This document shows positions 8,089-55,290 of a stretch of 64,000 nucleotides of DNA, one piece after another; within the stretch, counting starts at the first letter, position 1, and every line of letters starts with the position of its first letter. Position numbers and translations under genes: made by a program. Under the pieces are notes generated by a model that saw only the letters and a program-made list of their open reading frames with translations, had not been told where the DNA came from and made no database searches. The stretch is from an uncultured SAR86 cluster bacterium (GTDB lineage: Bacteria > Pseudomonadota > Gammaproteobacteria > Magnimaribacterales > Magnimaribacteraceae): positions 1-64,000 of the forward strand of contig CALJVP010000003.1 of NCBI GenBank assembly GCA_937773605.1. Reading direction: 5' to 3'.

Positions 8089-8841
8089 ATGATTGATGAT
8101 TACTTAGAAAGACATTACCCGTTTGAAGGTTGTTTTAACTTTAGAGATATAGGCGGTTATCTTAATCAAGACGGCAAGAGAGTTAAAAAGGGTCTTTACT
8201 TTCGTACTGGAAGACAGGATCGAATGAGTGATCAGGATCTTTCAAAGTTATCGGATCTTAAAATCTCAACTCAAATTGATTTACGTAAGCCTGATGAGGT
8301 TCTTGATCAAGGAAGAGGACCTTTAGAAGCTATGGGTGCTAACTATGTAAATATTGCCGTTATTCCTGAAGGGGGGAGTGATCAATTAAGTCGATTGGTT
8401 GGTGATACAGGTATCTCAGGTAAGAGGTATTTAGGTTATTTAGAATTTGGCCCTGATTCCTGGTTAAGGTTATTTAAAATTTTAGCCAACAAAGACAGTT
8501 TACCTGTGGTTTTGCATTGCACAGCAGGCAAAGATCGAACTGGTGTCTCAACGGCTTTCTTATTGTCTATTTTAGGTGTAAGTCGTGATTTGATAGAAGC
8601 AGATTATTTACTGACTAATCTTGATACTGCAAGACAGGCTGACTTCATTGAAAGTACGGTTGGTTATCCAGAGGGTTATGATAGAAAAAGTATGATCGCT
8701 GCAGCTGGAGTTCCTGAAGAGGCTTTAAAGGATTTTTTGGATGGCGTGGAATTGAAGTGGGGGAGTGCTGTCGGATACCTAAAGGAAATCGGGGTTACTC
8801 AAGAACAGATGGATACGATCCGGAATAATTTCCTTGAATAA
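8089..8841 (+). CDS. Tyrosine-protein phosphatase family protein (Y_phosphatase3)
   Basis: 250 residues. The phosphate-binding loop H-C-T-A-G-K-D-R-T-G places nucleophilic Cys144 and Arg150 correctly. The N-terminal N-F-R-D-I-G-G and the F-R-T-G-R-Q-D-R-M-S segment are hallmarks of PF13350, which includes bacterial dual-specificity and lipid phosphatases such as LipA. There is no signal peptide, so it is cytoplasmic. Substrate not predictable: phosphoprotein or phosphoinositide. The nearby PI-PLC-like gene makes a lipid substrate possible but this is speculative. Ten-odd bases separate it from the downstream hydrolase, so they probably share a transcript. Confidence 0.9.
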   Translation: MIDDYLERHYPFEGCFNFRDIGGYLNQDGKRVKKGLYFRTGRQDRMSDQDLSKLSDLKISTQIDLRKPDEVLDQGRGPLEAMGANYVNIAVIPEGGSDQLSRLVGDTGISGKRYLGYLEFGPDSWLRLFKILANKDSLPVVLHCTAGKDRTGVSTAFLLSILGVSRDLIEADYLLTNLDTARQADFIESTVGYPEGYDRKSMIAAAGVPEEALKDFLDGVELKWGSAVGYLKEIGVTQEQMDTIRNNFLE

Positions 8842-46440: not shown

Positions 46441-46553
46441 ATAGTTAGACAGAGAGAATTACAAAGATTTTGTTTTAACTTCCTTTTAAATTGTAGAGAT
46501 GATTTTAGTTGAATATTATTTTATTTTAAATAAGATTGTCAGCCACAAGACTT

Positions 46554-46820
46554 ATGAGTAAGAAAATATTATTTCTAGTTAGCTGTTTTATTACATTCAG
46601 CTTATCCGCTCATCCTTTGTTTCACATTGGAGAGGATCTCAACGAAGATCAGTTTCAAACAGAGTGTCAGGTTTGTAAAACCTATGAATCAGTCTTAGCC
46701 TTAGAAGAGTTTCAAGTAGAAGTTCAAAACTTCAATGAAAAAGTATTTTCAACTCACGATGAGTGTATTGAAAATAATATCTTACAAAATTATTTTTTAA
46801 GGGCACCGCCTCTATCCTAG
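46554..46820 (+). CDS. Small exported Cys-containing protein upstream of a metal receptor
   Basis: 88 residues from ATG 46554; an in-frame TTG six codons earlier gives a poorer signal peptide. A clear signal peptide (M-S-K-K-I-L-F-L-V-S-C-F-I-T-F-S-L-S-A) is followed by a short acidic protein with H-P-L-F-H near the new N-terminus and C-Q-V-C at about 39-42, plus one later Cys. Such small CxxC proteins are often encoded before metal-uptake TonB receptors (DUF2946-like). I do not recognise a named family. Binding of zinc or another metal through His and Cys is inferred from composition and from the receptor gene 41 bases downstream. Confidence 0.7.
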   Translation: MSKKILFLVSCFITFSLSAHPLFHIGEDLNEDQFQTECQVCKTYESVLALEEFQVEVQNFNEKVFSTHDECIENNILQNYFLRAPPLS

Positions 46821-46861: not shown

Positions 46862-49099
46862 ATGAAAGTATTCTTTTATGCGCTCATGGCGATGAGCTTG
46901 GTATCAATACCATTAAACGCAGAAGAAGTGGAAGAAGTAGTCGTAACTGCTTCCTTCATAGATCAAAATATAAGTGAAATAGAAAACCCTTTACACGTCG
47001 TGGTCGGAAATGATATTTCCGATAACTTAACTCAAAGCTTGGGCGAATCTCTAGACGGTTTGCTTGGGGTAACGTCCACTGACTATGGGCCTGCTGTTGG
47101 GCAGCCTGTAATTAGAGGTATGTCAGGTAATAGAGTGAAGGTTCTTAACAATGGAATGGTTGTAAGAGATGTTTCGGGAATTGGGGGCGATCATATTAAC
47201 GATGTCGATCTTAATGATATACAGCAAATTGAAGTAGTAAGAGGGCCATCTTCTCTACTCTATTCCAATGGAACAGTAGGCGGGATTATAAACATAGTAG
47301 ACAATACTATTCCTCAAGCAGATATAGAAGATCTTGAACTTAAGATTGGCCTCGAAAGTCAGTCTGTTAATGATGGAGATAGTCAAAATTTCTCTTATGC
47401 TAATAACATAGGTGGAATTAATCTGACTTTAGCTTACAAAGATTCAAAATTTGGAAATTTTGATGTGCCGCACGGAGCTATCATTCATTCAGAAGAGCAT
47501 GAAGATGAGCATGAAGATGAGCATGAAGATGAGCATGAAGAGGATCTAAGTTTTCTTGCTAATTCAGATTATGAATCAGAATCTTCAAGAATTGGTGTAT
47601 CTAAAACTGCTGAGTGGGGCTACATAGGAGCTTCTTACAGCAAGGTAGAAAGCCTTTATGGGATACCTTTCCATGGAGAAGAGCATGAAGAAGGACACGA
47701 AGAAGAGGGTCACGATGAAGAGGATCACGATGAAGAAGGACACGAAGAAGAGGGGCACGAAGATGAAAGAATTTTTTCTAGCACCGAATCCGATGTTTTT
47801 AATCTTGAGGGTTCGATCGCACTAAGTAACAACTTTATCAAGAAAGCTGATTTCTACTTCAGAGACACAGATTATTCATTGACTGAGCAACATGCTGAAG
47901 AAGCACATGAAGATGAGCATGAAGATGAGCATGAAGGTCACTCTGAGGGTCCAACACTTTTCAAAAACGATGCTAAAGAATACGGTGTAGCTTTTGATTT
48001 AGGCAGTAAAGCTATTTCTCAAAAAATTGTTTTTAAGAACGCTGATGAAAAAATGTCGATAATAGGGGAAGAGTCCTTTATGAATCCTACTAATAGTGAT
48101 GAACTCTCTATTGGCTATTACGTAAGTGCACCGACAGATTTATTTCACATTGATTTTGGTTTGAGACACGACAGAATTTCACGAAATGGATCAGTTACAC
48201 ATAAAGAAGATGATCACGATGACCATGGAGATGATGATCATGGAGACGACGATCATGCTGATGATGATCATCATGATGATGAAGTCGAAATTGATTATTT
48301 TGATAAAGACATAAACAGTACAAGTTATGCTTTTAGCATCTCTAATGACTTGAATGATTTTGTTTCAGTTAATCTTGGCCTTTCTTATTTAGAAAGAGCT
48401 CCTTCAGCCGTTGAACTCTTTATGAATGGCCCTCATTTGGCTACCGGTAGATATGAAGTAGGGAATACTAATTTGAAAGCTGAAGAATCCAACAATATGG
48501 ATCTTACTTTTAGTTATGAGAATGAAGGGTTCTTTGGTTCTTTAACTTTCTTTCGAAACAATATTGATAACTACATTTATTTATTAGATGAAACAGAAGA
48601 AGAGCATGAGGAGCATGAGGAGGAAGAGCACCACGAAGACTTAATTCTTTCAAATTATCTTCAAAAAAATGCAGAAATGGATGGTTATGAATTGGAATTT
48701 GGAAGAACTTTTGGATTTTACCAAGGTGAATTATTAGTATCATTTGGAATGGATTCAGTTTCGGCTGAGTTCTCTGATGGAACTAATATCCCAAGAATTG
48801 CTCCAGCGAGAAGCATATACAGATTAACTTATACTGAAGATGACCTTAAGTTTTTAGTCAGTTATAAAGATGTGGACGGTCAAGATGACATCGGTTTGGG
48901 TGAAACTGCAACCATGGGATATGAAATGTTAAATATGAGAATAACAAAGACTTTCGCTATGGGTGACGGAGATCTCAACCTATCTGTTTTTGGAACGAAT
49001 TTACTTGATGAAGTGGCAAGAAATCACACTTCTTTTGTTAAGAATGAAGTTCCTTTAGCAGGCAGAAACTACGGAGCTAAATTTATTTATAAGTTCTAG
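46862..49099 (+). CDS. TonB-dependent outer membrane receptor, probable zinc (ZnuD-like)
   Basis: 745 residues. A signal peptide of about 20 residues precedes a TonB-box-like E-E-V-V-V-T-A-S, the plug domain (V-I-R-G-M-S-G-N-R-V, E-V-V-R-G-P-S-S-L-L-Y) and a beta-barrel ending in Phe (F-I-Y-K-F). Five loops are packed with His, Glu and Asp: about residues 210-236, 270-303, 343-361, 449-475 and 580-592, mostly H-E-D-E units. This is the pattern of zinc receptors such as ZnuD. No clear Zur box was found upstream. The loops are built from short DNA repeats (see repeats). The metal is inferred. Confidence 0.9.
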   Translation: MKVFFYALMAMSLVSIPLNAEEVEEVVVTASFIDQNISEIENPLHVVVGNDISDNLTQSLGESLDGLLGVTSTDYGPAVGQPVIRGMSGNRVKVLNNGMVVRDVSGIGGDHINDVDLNDIQQIEVVRGPSSLLYSNGTVGGIINIVDNTIPQADIEDLELKIGLESQSVNDGDSQNFSYANNIGGINLTLAYKDSKFGNFDVPHGAIIHSEEHEDEHEDEHEDEHEEDLSFLANSDYESESSRIGVSKTAEWGYIGASYSKVESLYGIPFHGEEHEEGHEEEGHDEEDHDEEGHEEEGHEDERIFSSTESDVFNLEGSIALSNNFIKKADFYFRDTDYSLTEQHAEEAHEDEHEDEHEGHSEGPTLFKNDAKEYGVAFDLGSKAISQKIVFKNADEKMSIIGEESFMNPTNSDELSIGYYVSAPTDLFHIDFGLRHDRISRNGSVTHKEDDHDDHGDDDHGDDDHADDDHHDDEVEIDYFDKDINSTSYAFSISNDLNDFVSVNLGLSYLERAPSAVELFMNGPHLATGRYEVGNTNLKAEESNNMDLTFSYENEGFFGSLTFFRNNIDNYIYLLDETEEEHEEHEEEEHHEDLILSNYLQKNAEMDGYELEFGRTFGFYQGELLVSFGMDSVSAEFSDGTNIPRIAPARSIYRLTYTEDDLKFLVSYKDVDGQDDIGLGETATMGYEMLNMRITKTFAMGDGDLNLSVFGTNLLDEVARNHTSFVKNEVPLAGRNYGAKFIYKF
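47501..47536 (+). repeat. 12-bp tandem repeat in metal-binding loop 1
   Basis: Three perfect, contiguous copies of GAAGATGAGCAT (H-E-D-E) in frame, preceded by a partial unit. Because 12 is a multiple of three, copy-number changes would lengthen or shorten the loop without a frameshift. Confidence 0.8.
47909..47932 (+). repeat. Same 12-bp unit in loop 3
   Basis: Two perfect copies of GAAGATGAGCAT, identical to the unit at 47501-47536 although about 400 bases away within the same gene. This suggests the loops arose or are maintained by recombination among the units. Confidence 0.75.
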
Positions 49100-49316: not shown

Positions 49317-49817
49317 ATGGAAGAACAAGGATTAAATAATAATGTAACAGTAGAGACTTTCAAAGAGTCGTATGGCCATAGTTTTAAAACTCTAAACTTG
49401 GAATGGATAGAAGAGTTTTTTGTTGTTGAAGAAGAAGATCTAAAGATTCTTTCCAATCCTAAGTCCTACGTTATTGATAAAGGAGGAGAAATATTTTTTG
49501 CTCTTAAAGCGGGTAAAGTGATCGGAACCTCTGCTATGGTTTTAGTTAAACCGAAAATCTTTGAATTGGCAAAGATGGCCGTTGACAAGAATTTTCAAGG
49601 ACAAGGAGTCGGTCGTATTTTAATAAATGCTTCAATAGAGTTTGCTAGAAAAAGATCAGCAACTGAAATTTTTTTAGTGACTAACGATAAATTAAAACCC
49701 GCACTTAATCTTTATAAATCCAGTGGTTTTAATCTTGATCTTGACTATGATGATACAAGGTATGAAAGGGGAAATACCAAGATGGTGTTGGATATAGATA
49801 AAGGAGAAAACCTATGA
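49317..49817 (+). CDS. GNAT N-acetyltransferase
   Basis: 166 residues from ATG 49317 (a TTG codon precedes it in frame). The acetyl-CoA motif A reads M-A-V-D-K-N-F-Q-G-Q-G-V-G-R-I-L (about 91-106), followed by L-K-P-A-L-N-L-Y-K-S-S-G-F. Acceptor unknown. Its stop overlaps the next start (ATGA), so it is coupled to the SDR gene. Confidence 0.88.
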   Translation: MEEQGLNNNVTVETFKESYGHSFKTLNLEWIEEFFVVEEEDLKILSNPKSYVIDKGGEIFFALKAGKVIGTSAMVLVKPKIFELAKMAVDKNFQGQGVGRILINASIEFARKRSATEIFLVTNDKLKPALNLYKSSGFNLDLDYDDTRYERGNTKMVLDIDKGENL

Positions 49818-50596
49818 TGGATTTAGATTTAAAAGACAAAAGAGCAGTTGTCACTGGAGCAAGCTTAGGCATTGGAGAGGCTGTAGTTAAGATGCTAGCA
49901 GAGCATGGAGCAGACGTTAGTTTTTGTGCAAGAAACCCTAATGCAGTTGATGCGTTATCTTCATTTGAATCTACTAAAGGTTCAATCAAAGGTTTTGTTG
50001 CCGATATGGGCAATAAAGAATCAACAGATTCTTTTATAGAGTCTGTACAGGAAGACGGTCCTGTAGATATATTGGTTAATAATGTTGGTGCTTCCCCTTC
50101 AAGAAATTTTTTATACATGACGGATGAAGACTGGCAGGAATTACATGAACTTAATCTGCTTTCTGCTGTGAGGTGCACAAGAGCGTTCCTTCCTAACATG
50201 AGAGAAAAGAAATGGGGAAGGGTGATAATGGTCTCAAGTTCAGCGGGTAAATATCCAAATGCAGCATTAATAGATTACGGGACCACCAAAGCCGCTATGA
50301 TCTCAATGAGCAAATCATTAGCAAAGAAATACGGCTCTGATGGTGTTTTAGTAAATTCAATTCTGCCTGGTCTTATTCATACTGCTATGTGGGAAAGAGC
50401 AGCAACAGAAATTGCTGAGGCGACTGGTGGAAATATGGAAGATGTAATAAGAAATAATGGATCTTCGGTACCTGTAGGGAGGTATGGAACTTCAGAGGAA
50501 GTAGCTTCGCTAATCACTTTCCTTTGTACAAATGCTGCTTCTTACATAAGCGGTACTTCTATAGAAGTTGACGGAGGCCAGTCAGGGCACATCTAA
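49814..50596 (+). CDS. Short-chain dehydrogenase/reductase
   Basis: 260 residues. T-G-A-S-L-G-I-G at about 14-21, N-N-V-G at about 93-96, Ser near 141, and Y-G-T-T-K with the catalytic Tyr and Lys at about 156-160. The C-terminus Y-I-S-G-T-S-I-E-V-D-G-G fits 3-oxoacyl-reductase-like SDRs. ATGATG start overlapping the GNAT stop. The channel gene at 50601 begins five bases after its stop codon, so the SDR and the membrane unit may share an mRNA even if unrelated in function. Confidence 0.92.
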   Translation: MMDLDLKDKRAVVTGASLGIGEAVVKMLAEHGADVSFCARNPNAVDALSSFESTKGSIKGFVADMGNKESTDSFIESVQEDGPVDILVNNVGASPSRNFLYMTDEDWQELHELNLLSAVRCTRAFLPNMREKKWGRVIMVSSSAGKYPNAALIDYGTTKAAMISMSKSLAKKYGSDGVLVNSILPGLIHTAMWERAATEIAEATGGNMEDVIRNNGSSVPVGRYGTSEEVASLITFLCTNAASYISGTSIEVDGGQSGHI

Positions 50597-50600
50597 AATA

Positions 50601-51242
50601 ATGAGTATTGAGAATATGGAAGTTAATTTTAAATCTAAGCATCTTTTATTAAAATCTTCTGCAATATTAGGAGCTTTAATATTTTTTACCTATTTGATTT
50701 ATGATTTAGGCGTATTAAATCTGATCATAGATTCAGACAAGAGTAAAATTTCATTGATAATCCTAGCTGTCTATTGTTTAGCTACATTTCACTGGTATTT
50801 CTTAAGTTTTTCTTTAGATAAAGAAATAGAAGGGGTTAATTCTGGTGATGTCGGTTCTTCAGCTTTATTAAAAAAATTGAATCATCTAGATCAAAAGGAC
50901 CATCAGAAGACTAAACATTACTTATCTTTACTGGAAGATGAGTTAGCGAATAGGCATGCTTTAGGCTATATGATTGTTGATATCTTATTGAAACTAGGCC
51001 TCACGGGAACCGTCATAGGCTTTATTCTAATGTTGCTACCTATTGGAGATATCAAAGATTTTGACCCTCAAATAATTCAACAACTCTTGTCAAAAATGAG
51101 TGGCGGTATGGCGGTGGCCCTCTACACGACTCTAACAGGTCTAGTTACAAGTATTTTATTAAAACTCCAATACTTCTTGTTAGACTCTAGCTTAACGAGA
51201 CTAATGAACCATCTTTCTTCAAAAATTTTAGATGAAGCATAA
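50601..51242 (+). CDS. MotA/TolQ/ExbB-like proton-channel subunit
   Basis: 213 residues from ATG 50601, chosen because it follows the SDR stop by five bases and yields a complete first helix. Four hydrophobic segments lie at about 18-40, 49-69, 124-147 and 169-193. The two family hallmarks are present: L-G-L-T-G-T-V-I-G at 132-140 and A-L-Y-T-T-L-T-G at 173-180, with the channel threonines. The long cytoplasmic loop (70-120) between helices two and three is like TolQ/ExbB. It is not adjacent to tol-pal, exb-tonB or flagellar genes. Its end overlaps the next gene by eleven bases. Confidence 0.82.
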   Translation: MSIENMEVNFKSKHLLLKSSAILGALIFFTYLIYDLGVLNLIIDSDKSKISLIILAVYCLATFHWYFLSFSLDKEIEGVNSGDVGSSALLKKLNHLDQKDHQKTKHYLSLLEDELANRHALGYMIVDILLKLGLTGTVIGFILMLLPIGDIKDFDPQIIQQLLSKMSGGMAVALYTTLTGLVTSILLKLQYFLLDSSLTRLMNHLSSKILDEA

Positions 51243-51855
51243 GGTACTCATCAAGAGCGATGAGCAGGATGTTTTTACTGACCTACTGTTTAATGCATTA
51301 TTGGGCTTTGCTTTTATGTTTGCCATTGCATTTATGCTTATCAATAGCTCGGAGGACTCTGGAAAAATTGAAGCTAAAGCAGAAATTTTAATATCAGTAA
51401 GTTGGCCAGACAATCATCCTGATGATGTTGATGCAATAGTTGAAGATCCGCAAGGAGGTCTGGTTTGGTATCACAACAGAGACAGTGGACTTATGCATTT
51501 AGACCGCGACGATAGAGGAGTCTTTGCCGATAAGATGAACATCAACGGGAAAACAATTTCTAACCCTATAAATCAAGAAACAGTAACAGTAAGGAAACTG
51601 CAAGCTGGTGAATATGTAGTAAATTTACTTCACTATAAGGCTAATTATGAAGAAGCATTAAATGTTGATGTTAAGGTTGAAAAATTAAACCCTCAAGTAG
51701 AACTGATTTACTACGGTACTCATGAGTTGGAGGGAGTAGGGGATGAGAAAACAGCTGTAAGATTTACTGTAGATTCAAAAAAAGAAATTACCAATGTAAA
51801 TCAGCTATCCAAAAGGCTTTTAACAAAAGCTGTTGGAAGAGACACAAAAGGTTAA
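51232..51855 (+). CDS. ExbD/MotB-like one-helix protein with DUF2135-like periplasmic domain
   Basis: 207 residues. A short cytoplasmic N-terminus with Asp13 and Asp17 leads into a single helix (about 18-38), the ExbD/TolR/MotB topology in which a conserved Asp near the helix accepts channel protons. The remaining 165 residues are predicted periplasmic and are neither an ExbD/TolR nor an OmpA domain. The stretch D-D-V-D-A-I-V-E-D-P-Q-G-G and H-L-D-R-D-D-R-G resembles the DUF2135/YfaP beta-sandwich (D-x-D-x-x-x-x-D-P-x-G ... L-D-x-D-D). The combination is unusual. It overlaps the channel gene, so the two are co-translated partners. Confidence 0.7.
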   Translation: MKHKVLIKSDEQDVFTDLLFNALLGFAFMFAIAFMLINSSEDSGKIEAKAEILISVSWPDNHPDDVDAIVEDPQGGLVWYHNRDSGLMHLDRDDRGVFADKMNINGKTISNPINQETVTVRKLQAGEYVVNLLHYKANYEEALNVDVKVEKLNPQVELIYYGTHELEGVGDEKTAVRFTVDSKKEITNVNQLSKRLLTKAVGRDTKG

Positions 51856-51861
51856 AGAAAC

Positions 51862-52425
51862 TTGATTGAAGAAAGAATAGTTCTAATGATTGCTTATGTA
51901 GCTATAGCTCTTCTTCTATTGTATTTCTACTTTTTTTCTCAATTCTCTAAAGCAATTAAGATCTCAATAGTTCTGGTGGTAACAGTTTTTTATTTCCTTA
52001 CTTGGCAAGGCTTTGAAAGGGTTCTGGGTTGGCCCGCAGGGCTAGAAATGCCCAATGAATTTAGAGTTCTCTGGATTGCTTTGGAGGAACCTGACAAGAA
52101 TAATAATGAAACTGGTGAAATATATTTTTGGATAAGAGATCTAGATAAAGCTGGCCTTCCAATTAGCAGACCAAGGGCGTACTCAATAATTTGGTCTGAA
52201 GAAAATGCTAAAGCAGCCGAAGAGGCTTTAAATAAATTAGAAGAAGGAGAAATATTAAACGGAAGTATGAGCAGAAATGTTTTGACTGGAGATCAAGAGA
52301 AAGCAAAAGGAGAAGATTACGAAGACTCCGGCTCGCCTTCTGGCCAGCAAGGCGAGGAGCCTTCTTTTCAGTTTAAAGAAGTTGCCCCACCTAGCTTGCC
52401 TGCTAAGGGTCTTTTAAATAATTAA
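51862..52425 (+). CDS. Third membrane protein of the channel unit, unknown family
   Basis: 187 residues from TTG 51862. Two transmembrane helices lie at about 8-26 and 32-49. A small soluble domain (about 50-115, containing F-R-V-L-W-I-A-L-E-E-P and an acidic/amphipathic helix) follows. The C-terminal 60 residues are polar and low-complexity (G-E-D-Y-E-D-S-G-S-P-S-G) and end in V-A-P-P-S-L-P-A-K-G. I do not recognise it. Six bases separate it from the ExbD-like gene, and it is convergent with the PQQ dehydrogenase gene two bases away, so the unit ends here. A structural or regulatory part of the channel complex is inferred. Confidence 0.65.
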   Translation: MIEERIVLMIAYVAIALLLLYFYFFSQFSKAIKISIVLVVTVFYFLTWQGFERVLGWPAGLEMPNEFRVLWIALEEPDKNNNETGEIYFWIRDLDKAGLPISRPRAYSIIWSEENAKAAEEALNKLEEGEILNGSMSRNVLTGDQEKAKGEDYEDSGSPSGQQGEEPSFQFKEVAPPSLPAKGLLNN

Positions 52426-52427
52426 CT

Positions 52428-54659
52428 TTAGTCTTCTAAATCCAACCAAGTTAACCTTTCTTTTCCCGCTTCTATTTCTCCGGCAGCAACCAATCTATCT
52501 TGCTCAGCTCTAGCTTTAACATAGTTATGTATTAGCTGTGTATCCTCTTTAGTTAATACATCGCTAAAAGATGCCATTCCATTGCTAGATAAAATTCCAT
52601 CTAAAACAATTAGATCAAATCCATCATGAGAACCTTGTCCCATAAGCCTTAGATCAGGAATGACGCCTCCAGACCTGGCAACAAGACCATGGCAGCCGGC
52701 ACAAAAGTCATGGTATTGTATTTCTCCTTTCTTAAGATCTGAGTTACTTACTTGAGTGATATTTTGTTTAGGTATATCTCTAATTCTTAGATTTGGCTGT
52801 GGAAGTTCTTCCGAACCTTGAAGTTTGAAGACCAATAATCTTCCAGAATTGTTGTAGTTCAATGAAGCAGGTTTCACAACTGGATCTAATGGCTCACCAG
52901 AAAAAAGATCACCACCACCTGTACCCGTTAGGATAGATACGTATTGAACACCATCAATTTCATAGGTAATAGGGGGTGCTAACATAGAAGTATAAGTATT
53001 GAATTGCCAGAGCTGCTCCCCACTATCTTTATCATAAGCAGTAAACATACCTAAAGCGTCACCTTGAAAAACCACTCCACCTTCCGTTGCTATCACTCCT
53101 CCGTTCCAATAGTGAGGAATTTCTATAGACCAAGATTCCTCTCCTGTTAGAGGATTAAAAGCTTTTAGATAACCTTTTGGAGTAGGTTGGCTTTCTATAT
53201 TATCCAAAAAAAGCTGAGTGATTCTGCCAAACTCTAGTCCCAAATTCATTCTTCCAGGATTTCGTTTATATATCCCGGTTTTTTTGTATTCATCCGCAAT
53301 AGAGTAGATCAAAGGGTTGTCTTGAGCAGGAAGATAAACCATTCCTGACTTTTCATCGACTGACATTGCTTGCCAGTTATGAGCTCCCAAAGGACCTGGC
53401 AATACCCACTTAGCTTCTTCAGAATAGTCTAAATCTGGGTTTTCAACCGGTCTTCCAGTCTCTAAATCAACATGAGAGGCCCAAGTTACTGTAGCAAAAG
53501 GATGCGCTCTAAGTAACTTGCCATCACTTCTGTCAATGACATAAAAGAAACCATTTTTAGGTGCCTGTAAAAGAACTTTTCTATCTACGCCATCAATTTC
53601 CATATCTGCTAAAGCCATATCTTGAACGGCAGTGTAGTCCCAGTTATCTCCAGGCGTTGTTTGATAATGCCATTTGTACTGACCAGTATCTACGTCAAGG
53701 GCGACTATCGATGATAGGAATAAATTATCTCCTCCACCAGGTGACCTGATATCTCTCGTCCAGGGTGATCCATTACCAACTCCTAGATAAATATTATTAA
53801 AATCAGCATCATAGACAATTGAATTCCATACGGTTCCTCCTCCTCCAAATTCCCACCAATTACTTCCTTTCCAAGTATCAGCAGCCATTTCCATGGCAGG
53901 GTCTTCGAAGCCAAGACTTGGATCACCGGGAACGGTATAAAATCTCCAAATTTGTTCTCCAGTTTCGGAATCGTATGCAGTTACGTACCCTCTAACTCCA
54001 AATTCAGCTCCCCCATTTCCAATAAATACTTTCCCTTTTGCAACTCTTGGTGCTCCAGTGATTGTATAAAATCTTTCAGTATCATAGAGGGTATTAACTT
54101 CCCAAACCTTCTCCCCCGTTTCAGCATTTAGTGCAAATAAACGACCATCAAGACTTCCAAAATATACTTTACCGTTATAGACAGCCACCCCTCTATTAAC
54201 AACATCGCAACAAGCCCTTCTGGCAACTTCACCCGGGACTTCTGGATCAAAAGACCAGATTGTCTCTCCAGAAATAGCATCAATAGCGAAGACTTTACTC
54301 CAAGAACTAGTTAGAAACATTATTCCATCAACGACTATAGGCGTAGCTTCTTGTGCTCTGTTGGTTCCCATGTCTTTATACCAGGCCAATCCAAGCTCTG
54401 AAACAGTATCTTTATTGATCTGTTTTAATGGAGAGAATCTTTGTTCTTCAAAGGTCCTTCCATAAGCCAGCCAATTTCCAGGTTCGGATTCCGCCGACAT
54501 GATCCTTTCATCATCAATCAATCCTATCTCTGTTGATCCTAGAGAAATAGAGTCAGAGTTAATAGATTCATCGTCAGATTGACTGCAAGAACTCATTAAC
54601 AGAGAAAAAAGAACAGTTAAAGCAGTTAGCTTTACAGAGACAAGCATAGATTTAGTCAT
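52428..54659 (-). CDS. PQQ-dependent quinohaemoprotein alcohol dehydrogenase
   Basis: 743 residues. A lipoprotein signal peptide ends at Cys25 (L-M-S-S-C), so the enzyme is anchored in the periplasm. The eight-bladed propeller carries the vicinal Cys150-Cys151 pair (R-A-C-C-D) that contacts PQQ. A C-terminal cytochrome c domain has C-A-G-C-H at 653-657 and a later Met ligand near residue 695. This domain order is that of quinohaemoprotein ethanol/methanol-type dehydrogenases, which oxidise alcohols and pass electrons to cytochromes. No PQQ synthesis genes are in the window. Convergent with the channel unit. Confidence 0.93.
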   Translation of the reverse strand: MTKSMLVSVKLTALTVLFSLLMSSCSQSDDESINSDSISLGSTEIGLIDDERIMSAESEPGNWLAYGRTFEEQRFSPLKQINKDTVSELGLAWYKDMGTNRAQEATPIVVDGIMFLTSSWSKVFAIDAISGETIWSFDPEVPGEVARRACCDVVNRGVAVYNGKVYFGSLDGRLFALNAETGEKVWEVNTLYDTERFYTITGAPRVAKGKVFIGNGGAEFGVRGYVTAYDSETGEQIWRFYTVPGDPSLGFEDPAMEMAADTWKGSNWWEFGGGGTVWNSIVYDADFNNIYLGVGNGSPWTRDIRSPGGGDNLFLSSIVALDVDTGQYKWHYQTTPGDNWDYTAVQDMALADMEIDGVDRKVLLQAPKNGFFYVIDRSDGKLLRAHPFATVTWASHVDLETGRPVENPDLDYSEEAKWVLPGPLGAHNWQAMSVDEKSGMVYLPAQDNPLIYSIADEYKKTGIYKRNPGRMNLGLEFGRITQLFLDNIESQPTPKGYLKAFNPLTGEESWSIEIPHYWNGGVIATEGGVVFQGDALGMFTAYDKDSGEQLWQFNTYTSMLAPPITYEIDGVQYVSILTGTGGGDLFSGEPLDPVVKPASLNYNNSGRLLVFKLQGSEELPQPNLRIRDIPKQNITQVSNSDLKKGEIQYHDFCAGCHGLVARSGGVIPDLRLMGQGSHDGFDLIVLDGILSSNGMASFSDVLTKEDTQLIHNYVKARAEQDRLVAAGEIEAGKERLTWLDLED

Positions 54660-54765: not shown

Positions 54766-55290
54766 ATGAAAAAAAGTTTAGCAATTTTATGTGTGCTTCT
54801 GTCTATGTCGACATTTACCAAAGTCATTGATAATGTAAAAGACATCAGAGCTGAATGGGTTCCTTTTTCAGATCAAGTCATGGGTGGTATTTCTGAAGTT
54901 AATGTTTATGAGCTTCTAGAAGATGGAGTTTCTTTTTACCGACTGGAAGGAAATGTAAGCACAGAAAATAATGGAGGTTTTATTCAGTTAAGGGCAGGGG
55001 TGAATCTTAGAAATAAGAATATAGAAGGAATAAGAATTAAGGTAAGAGGAAATAACAATGAATACTACTTACACCTAAGATCTCCAAGAATGCTCCCGTG
55101 GAACTATTACACTGCAAAATTTTATGCCTCAGAAGAGTGGGTGGTTGTAGATTTACCTTTAAGCTCTTTTGAGTATTCAAGAGATACTTCAAAGAGTTTT
55201 AATTCTTCTAAAATACAGTCAATAGGCTTAGTGGCGTATGGAAAAGATTTTTTTGCTCAAGTTGATTTAGCTGAGGTTGAGCTTTATTAG
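54766..55290 (+). CDS. CIA30-family protein, exported
   Basis: 174 residues. A short signal peptide (M-K-K-S-L-A-I-L-C-V-L-L-S-M-S) is followed by W-V-P-F-S-D-Q-V-M-G-G-I-S-E and N-N-G-G-F-I-Q-L-R, the PF08547 beta-sandwich signature (complex I intermediate-associated protein 30 family). Bacterial versions have no proven role, and a direct complex I function is unlikely with a signal peptide. Divergent from the PQQ dehydrogenase gene with 106 bases between. Its stop overlaps the end of the convergent enoyl-CoA hydratase gene by four bases. Confidence 0.85.
   Translation: MKKSLAILCVLLSMSTFTKVIDNVKDIRAEWVPFSDQVMGGISEVNVYELLEDGVSFYRLEGNVSTENNGGFIQLRAGVNLRNKNIEGIRIKVRGNNNEYYLHLRSPRMLPWNYYTAKFYASEEWVVVDLPLSSFEYSRDTSKSFNSSKIQSIGLVAYGKDFFAQVDLAEVELY

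Follow-up and report, generated by a model that had tools for sequence, protein, structure and literature searches.

Proton-driven motors of the bacterial envelope are, to our knowledge, a handful: the flagellar stator and the Tol, Ton, gliding and Zorya systems. Which of these, if any, is encoded by three small, tightly packed genes in an uncultured SAR86 bacterium? The genes lie on the forward strand at 50601–52425 of the window, a 64,000-nucleotide stretch of contig CALJVP010000003.1 from a 1.3 Mb genome. Subunit A (213 aa, 50601–51242) starts with the ATG at 50601 and overlaps the start of subunit B (207 aa, 51232–51855) by 11 bases; subunit C (187 aa, 51862–52425) has a TTG start and begins 6 bases past B. 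An initial annotation, made from the sequence alone, had placed three open reading frames here and read them as a new class of proton-powered envelope machine. The frames are confirmed, and the sequence comparisons suggest that the class may indeed be new. The best overall explanation, which we consider probable, is that the trio forms one inner-membrane complex, an undescribed form of the proton-driven A5:B2 motors; that it is a proton-driven machine of some general kind is a slightly safer statement.

Subunit A is a member of the MotA/TolQ/ExbB channel family. It scores 42.1 bits against PF01618 (MotA_ExbB, cut-off 22.9), a profile matched by 53/53 diverse A relatives, has four predicted helices with a short cytoplasmic loop, and carries both hallmark motifs, LGLTGTVIG and ALYTTLTG, from which it had been called TolQ/MotA-type. 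Compared with solved structures, the A family profile found MotA (8gqy, 1e-6) and TolQ (3.5e-5), and the profile alignment pairs GliGTviG of A with GLFGTVWG of TolQ, and GmatALyTTlvGL with GIAEALIATAIGL of TolQ (stretch ALIATAIGL). Seven residues (D46, G133, G136, T137, G140, T177, and G180) are identical in all ungapped bacterial and viral relatives, with the invariant glycines and threonines located in the last two helices; in the known motors, the conserved channel positions of A and B line the proton path. A canonical Tol or Ton identity was rejected, as the equivalog scores of A are far too low (tolQ 12.9 bits, cut-off 221; exbB2 14.9 bits, cut-off 135) and contigs 2 and 14 of the genome carry its own TolQR-type and ExbBD-type pairs, respectively. 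Because these loci are separate, the trio represents an additional system rather than a Tol or Ton locus under the wrong name.

Subunit B combines one transmembrane helix with a predicted β-sandwich. The hydrophobic helix (model residues 10–37, 51259–51342, forward strand) is single in 54/54 relatives, in agreement with the ExbD/MotB topology first proposed for this protein, and contains both D13 and D17. Either aspartate had been put forward as the channel residue; D17 (codon 51280–51282) is the conserved one, kept in 169/172 B proteins that have a residue at that position, and it lies in the same register as the aspartates of the TolR (PYIDVMLVLLVIF) and ExbD (PMLDVVFILLIFF) proteins of the same genome. 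An AlphaFold2 model built from 54 sequences (pLDDT 89, pTM 0.76) reproduced the helix and placed the sandwich at residues 52–190, which, on the model and the charge distribution, probably forms the periplasmic arm that had been anticipated. W58, D65, D67, L90, R92, D93, D94, G96, E116, and R121 are invariant in 173/173 bacterial and viral B proteins, and the invariant acidic residues, considered with R92 as the set D65, D67, R92, D93, D94, and E116, might coordinate a metal, calcium for example.

What is this sandwich related to? B had no Pfam, NCBIfam, or PADLOC match at cut-off; no ExbD/TolR domain was detected in the window protein (Pfam, E up to 1) or in 54 relatives (E 0.01), and no OmpA-family Pfam domain in B or C. 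The likeness to DUF2135 (PF09906, the type of E. coli YfaP) noted earlier was recovered with hhalign over residues 48–139 (probability 96%, E 1.1e-9), a region with the motifs DxDLxVxDPxG, L-D-x-D, and PGxYxV, though B stays below the Pfam gathering score and only 1/54 B members matched, at E 0.004. B also differs from DUF2135 proteins in that its sandwich is longer (52–190) and fused to a channel-type helix. A Foldseek search of the PDB with the B model gave nothing below 0.001, with TerD missing from the top 50; when Foldseek candidates were aligned with VIA-align, TerD 3ibz reached Z 11.4 over 139 residues, followed by further TerD structures (2qng 9.9, 2qz7 9.5, 2kxt 9.2, with a radial-spoke chain at 9.6 among them), and the next unrelated fold group stood at Z 6.5. 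The title of 2kxt describes a calcium-binding TerD. DUF2135 is the sequence-level relative of B and, going by the model, TerD its nearest solved fold; homology to TerD by sequence was unsupported with either 9 TerD sequences or a wider set. TerD proteins lack such a membrane helix, no other ter genes were seen near the trio loci, and jumbo phage papers treat TerD solely as a Ter-system component or as encoded by separate genes (PMC7824862, PMC12363816). Sequence searches of the PDB with the profiles of B and C returned nothing. Window B weakly matches phrog_1735, a PHROG family of unknown function, and a domain of this 673-residue phage protein resembles the B sandwich (B residues 42–194, 51355–51813).

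Subunit C has no family of its own in the databases searched: at cut-off it matched nothing in Pfam, NCBIfam, PADLOC, or PHROG, a Pfam search with 51 relatives at E 0.01 gave just four one-member matches, and no TonB/TolA domain was found in C (Pfam). Its AlphaFold model (pLDDT 86.8) comprises two helices, a small α/β domain of strands and one helix (66–137), an acidic linker (~140–165), and a strand (168–173). The two helices agree with the first description of this protein, which had ended it in an acidic tail; the acidic stretch, poorly ordered, low-complexity, and variable, proved to be a linker, since a conserved strand and a [LFM]PxK motif follow it. This C-terminal motif occurs in 122/161 C proteins (80/81 bacterial, 42/80 viral; expectation ~7/161 when the last 40 residues are shuffled). 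The charge bias in 34/39 two-helix C proteins places the short helix–helix loop inside and the domain outside. Fold searches with the C model were not convincing (best Z 7.3, to the helices; 6.2 for the domain).

The three genes co-occur almost without exception. Gene order and gaps were counted on the best 160 loci, bacterial and viral: B and C were present in 160/160 and A in 157, the other three having B at the contig end, and the order was A-B-C in 157/157 loci whose contig spans all three, so the arrangement in the window is not chance. The median A/B overlap is 4 bases (157 loci), and gaps of at most 20 bases separate A from B in 152/157 and B from C in 147/160. C, proposed at the outset as a third subunit specific to this system, was present at every locus whose contig reached far enough. 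Bacterial carriers are SAR86, K189A, PS1, Bradyrhizobium-like, and Burkholderiales-like bacteria, the last two being labels that we inferred, partly on gene content. Within the SAR86 family, 29/35 genomes encode a B protein 73–86% identical to that of the window, with A-B-C together in the same order wherever the contig extends; B was absent from the other genomes of the order that were searched outside this family. Sixteen of 398 proteobacterial genomes were positive with the B profile: the window genome itself, ten of one Bradyrhizobium-like family, three Burkholderiales-like, and two divergent carriers, one of which resembles a prophage. The same approach found at least 541 relatives in GTDB genome contigs and at least 150 confirmed relatives in IMG/VR, from T4-type and jumbo phages. 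An alignment including phage B proteins was needed to detect the relatives on viral contigs; window B alone as query found none there. Plasmids yielded distant Azospirillum copies only, and none with a Bradyrhizobium-like query. In the B tree, which has no root and in which long branches meet, the quinoprotein-linked bacterial copies fall into one clade (98/96) among viral lineages.

Set beside MotAB, TolQR, ExbBD, and AglRQS, the trio shares an A subunit in PF01618 with the glycine/threonine channel motifs kept, and a B subunit whose N-terminal helix carries an aspartate in the register of ExbD D25, TolR D23, and MotB D32. It differs in that the ExbD/TolR domain or OmpA peptidoglycan-binding domain of B is replaced by a DUF2135/TerD-like sandwich, in the obligatory third gene C, which belongs to no known family, and in being carried by phages. 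A 2025 survey of MotAB relatives notes that proteins of this kind in general bear diverse domains whose function is unknown; "TerD" does not occur in it, and where it treats other domains, none of the B type is named (PMC12505986). In the open-access literature we found neither a DUF2135- or TerD-type B subunit nor a description of the trio. The absence of OmpA, TolR/ExbD, and TonB/TolA domains and of Zorya partners, on which the initial annotation had relied, was borne out by Pfam, PADLOC, and the neighbouring genes; neither B nor C matched a named system, and A matched one, ZorA, at the superfamily level only. Two features had escaped the initial annotation: the occurrence in phages and, in bacteria, the linkage to a quinoprotein dehydrogenase.

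What might such a machine act on in bacteria? The neighbourhood offers one clue. A pyrroloquinoline quinone (PQQ)-dependent quinohaemoprotein alcohol dehydrogenase (PQQ-ADH) with a C-terminal cytochrome domain stands convergently, directly 3′ of C, in 67/80 bacterial loci. In the window it occupies 52428–54659 on the reverse strand (TIGR03075, 631 bits), outside the operon, and is the only such enzyme found in the genome. The convergent enzymes of PS1 alphaproteobacteria are 55–58% identical to it. Among Burkholderiales-like loci, pqqE lies immediately 5′ of A in L218, and cytochrome PedF and a quinoprotein-relay metallohydrolase lie near the trio in L219; the Bradyrhizobium-like L214 has a SoxYZ-like carrier and a relay metallohydrolase a few kb away. 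These accessory genes (pedF, the quinoprotein relay system, the SoxYZ-like carrier) share the neighbourhood of the bacterial trio, but none of their NCBIfam families, as searched here, names a membrane-motor component. At the genome level, TIGR03075 was detected in 14/14 proteobacterial genomes that matched the trio strongly, against 96/398 overall, whereas two genomes with weak, phage-type trio matches lacked it; within the SAR86 order, 10/10 trio genomes tested had PQQ-ADH, and 14/14 genomes of other families had neither trio nor enzyme. Since the B proteins of this group fall in one clade (98/96), the counts cannot be treated as independent. The PQQ link is a genetic fact and probably a functional one. 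PQQ-ADH is present but pqqE absent in the window genome and in three other SAR86 genomes, so these bacteria probably depend on external PQQ. The same combination of trio and PQQ-ADH without pqqE occurs in G429, and a PQQ exporter was disfavoured for this reason.

In viruses, the trio has a different setting. Cultured phages gave 27 matching records, all from Rhizobium or Sinorhizobium phages with clearly unrelated genomes of 59–171 kb. The trio could be read directly in phages RL2RES, RHph_I1_9, and RHph_N3_19; in phage 16-3 it has two additional small genes between its members, and A and C of that phage, at 23–24% identity, are the weakest assignment. Elsewhere, the chief interruption of the otherwise tight operon lies between B and C, where the viral loci L051, L054, and L092 have an inserted extra reading frame or frames of ~0.9–1 kb. 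We checked viral identity on 30 long contigs with the trio: terminase (PF03237) was present in 15/30, the T4-type major capsid protein (Gp23, PF07068) in 15/30, and either in 18/30, the largest contig (527 kb) having both. Among 114 flanking reading frames, nearly all from non-redundant virus loci, GDP-mannose dehydratase (10) and ClpS (5) were the most frequent, followed by SbmA/BacA, subtilase, and trypsin-like proteases (4 each), Hsp20 (3), and ClpP and lysozyme (2 each). Several jumbo phages have the order A-B-C-ClpS-SbmA, and the SbmA/BacA-like transporter adjoins the trio in L055, L068, L087, and L098, with a ClpS-like gene before it in the first three; SbmA/BacA mediates peptide uptake in bacteria. 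An exported, trypsin-like (HtrA-type) protease is encoded near the trio in phage 16-3 (L037, 4244–5143), a Rhizobium-type prophage (L221, 7989–8633), and phage N3_19 (L036, 9192–9884). The trio seems self-contained, because no partner is constant across phages, and its surroundings fit an envelope or stress role. A general role in lysis was rejected: a T4-type lysozyme lies near two loci only (L084, L051), and a motif scan and Pfam gave no more. We found no report in the open-access literature of a phage-encoded MotA/TolQ/ExbB protein with these partners.

How could the three proteins work together? In the explanation we favour, A would form the ring and channel, and protons would pass between T137/T177 of A and D17 of a pair of B helices, turning or shifting B. 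B would extend its DUF2135-type, TerD-like sandwich into the periplasm, possibly with a bound metal such as calcium, and C, with its periplasmic domain and long flexible loop, would be the dedicated third subunit that couples the movement of B to a target. What the analysis establishes are the genes, their constant linkage, the family of A, the conserved channel residues, and the predicted folds; the proton flux, the 5:2 stoichiometry, and the place of C within the complex are inferences. The target is the part of this explanation of which we are least sure. In bacteria, the most likely candidate would be the periplasmic quinoprotein dehydrogenase system, in which the machine might load or place PQQ or calcium, an assignment we regard as doubtful; in phages, it could remodel the host envelope during infection.

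Several observations weigh against this explanation. Three Bradyrhizobium-like B proteins (L119, L120, L122) have valine at D17 while keeping D13, and it is possible, judging from these sequences, that their channel aspartate has shifted or that the copies are non-conducting; the same three proteins carry lysine at N21. The TerD resemblance is a match of fold only (hhalign E 0.06). Some SAR86 relatives (G001, G097) have PQQ-ADH without the trio, most Bradyrhizobium-like genomes have the trio hundreds of kilobases from any PQQ-ADH, and, the quinoprotein group being one clade, the PQQ linkage may reflect a single inheritance instead of repeated selection. Finally, phages carry the trio with no PQQ gene nearby, so PQQ is not the whole function.

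The phage copies and the PQQ link together change what the machine may do. A rival that we consider a substantial, if less than even, possibility is an envelope device of phages that draws on the proton gradient to alter the host envelope during infection, for example so as to exclude other phages or to survive envelope stress; the quinoprotein-linked copies of bacteria would be its descendants. Diversity is far greater among the virus copies than in the single bacterial clade (98/96), the virus copies extend over T4-type and jumbo phages (18/30 long contigs with terminase or Gp23) and several unrelated rhizobial phage lineages, and their neighbours (SbmA/BacA, ClpS, ClpP, trypsin-like and subtilisin-like proteases, Hsp20) are compatible with such a device. 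However, with long branches meeting in an unrooted tree, acquisition by phages from their hosts, more than once, is equally possible; no neighbour is constant across phages, and the trio is in no defence library. More specifically, A-B-C could be the first known viral proton motor, present in several tailed-phage lineages and domesticated once by bacteria for periplasmic quinoprotein respiration, a scenario we put forward tentatively. The sandwich of B raises a further alternative, in which B binds a periplasmic ligand or metal and A-B-C acts as a regulated proton leak or signal, a sensor rather than a motor. Its TerD-like fold with invariant acidic residues would suit such a role, as a ligand-sensing function of TerD domains has been discussed for Ter stress systems, those of jumbo phages included (PMC7824862), but neither A, B, nor C has a cytoplasmic output domain and the superfamily members of known function perform mechanical work, which leaves a sensor unlikely.

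Two established systems were weighed against the undescribed proton-driven complex. The need of the SAR86 genomes and G429 for external PQQ (PQQ-ADH, no pqqE), together with the known import of PQQ by the TonB-dependent PqqU (PMC12124388) and a TonB-dependent receptor recognized from sequence at 8403–10889 of L219, would be explained if the trio were a divergent Tol/Ton pair energizing one outer-membrane receptor such as PqqU. We judge this improbable: C has no TonB/TolA domain and B no ExbD/TolR domain, ExbBD and TolQR are already in the genome, some trio carriers synthesize PQQ, and no such receptor adjoins the trio in phages. That the trio is an ordinary Zorya-type anti-phage system is highly improbable. 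Both have a MotA-like and MotB-like pair outside flagella, and A gives weak, superfamily-level PADLOC matches to ZorA (best E 6.6e-5), as expected of any superfamily member. Zorya identity was nevertheless rejected, as PADLOC matches neither B nor C, the OmpA domain of ZorB is missing, and ZorC, ZorD, ZorE, and nuclease partners are absent from the locus; the three small genes are, moreover, inherited vertically and near-universal in the SAR86 genera (29/35 family genomes) and are carried by phages themselves.

The proton-driven complex would extend the short list of envelope motors by a member whose periplasmic part differs and whose third subunit is both new and obligatory; its carriers range from marine and soil Proteobacteria of several groups to phages, jumbo phages among them. 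A proton-driven membrane machine encoded by a phage would be a novelty, none having been reported in the open-access literature. The function of the trio is directly testable, since its genes are compact and conserved and occur in rhizobial phages that can be cultured, such as 16-3, RL2RES, and RHph_I1_9, as well as in Bradyrhizobium-like bacteria.

In the window, the trio is flanked by a short-chain dehydrogenase (SDR; 49814–50596, forward strand, PF00106/PF13561), whose stop lies 4 bases before A, and by the PQQ-ADH; the latter adjoins a CIA30-domain protein (54766–55290, forward strand, PF08547) that is kept in SAR86 relatives. These relatives likewise have the SDR 5′ of the trio, often with a GFA-like gene between, and the PQQ dehydrogenase convergent on the 3′ side. 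Further upstream, on the forward strand, a small secreted cysteine-containing protein (46536–46820) lies 5′ of a TonB-dependent receptor with very long His/Glu/Asp-rich stretches (46862–49099), which looks like a metal receptor, perhaps for zinc.

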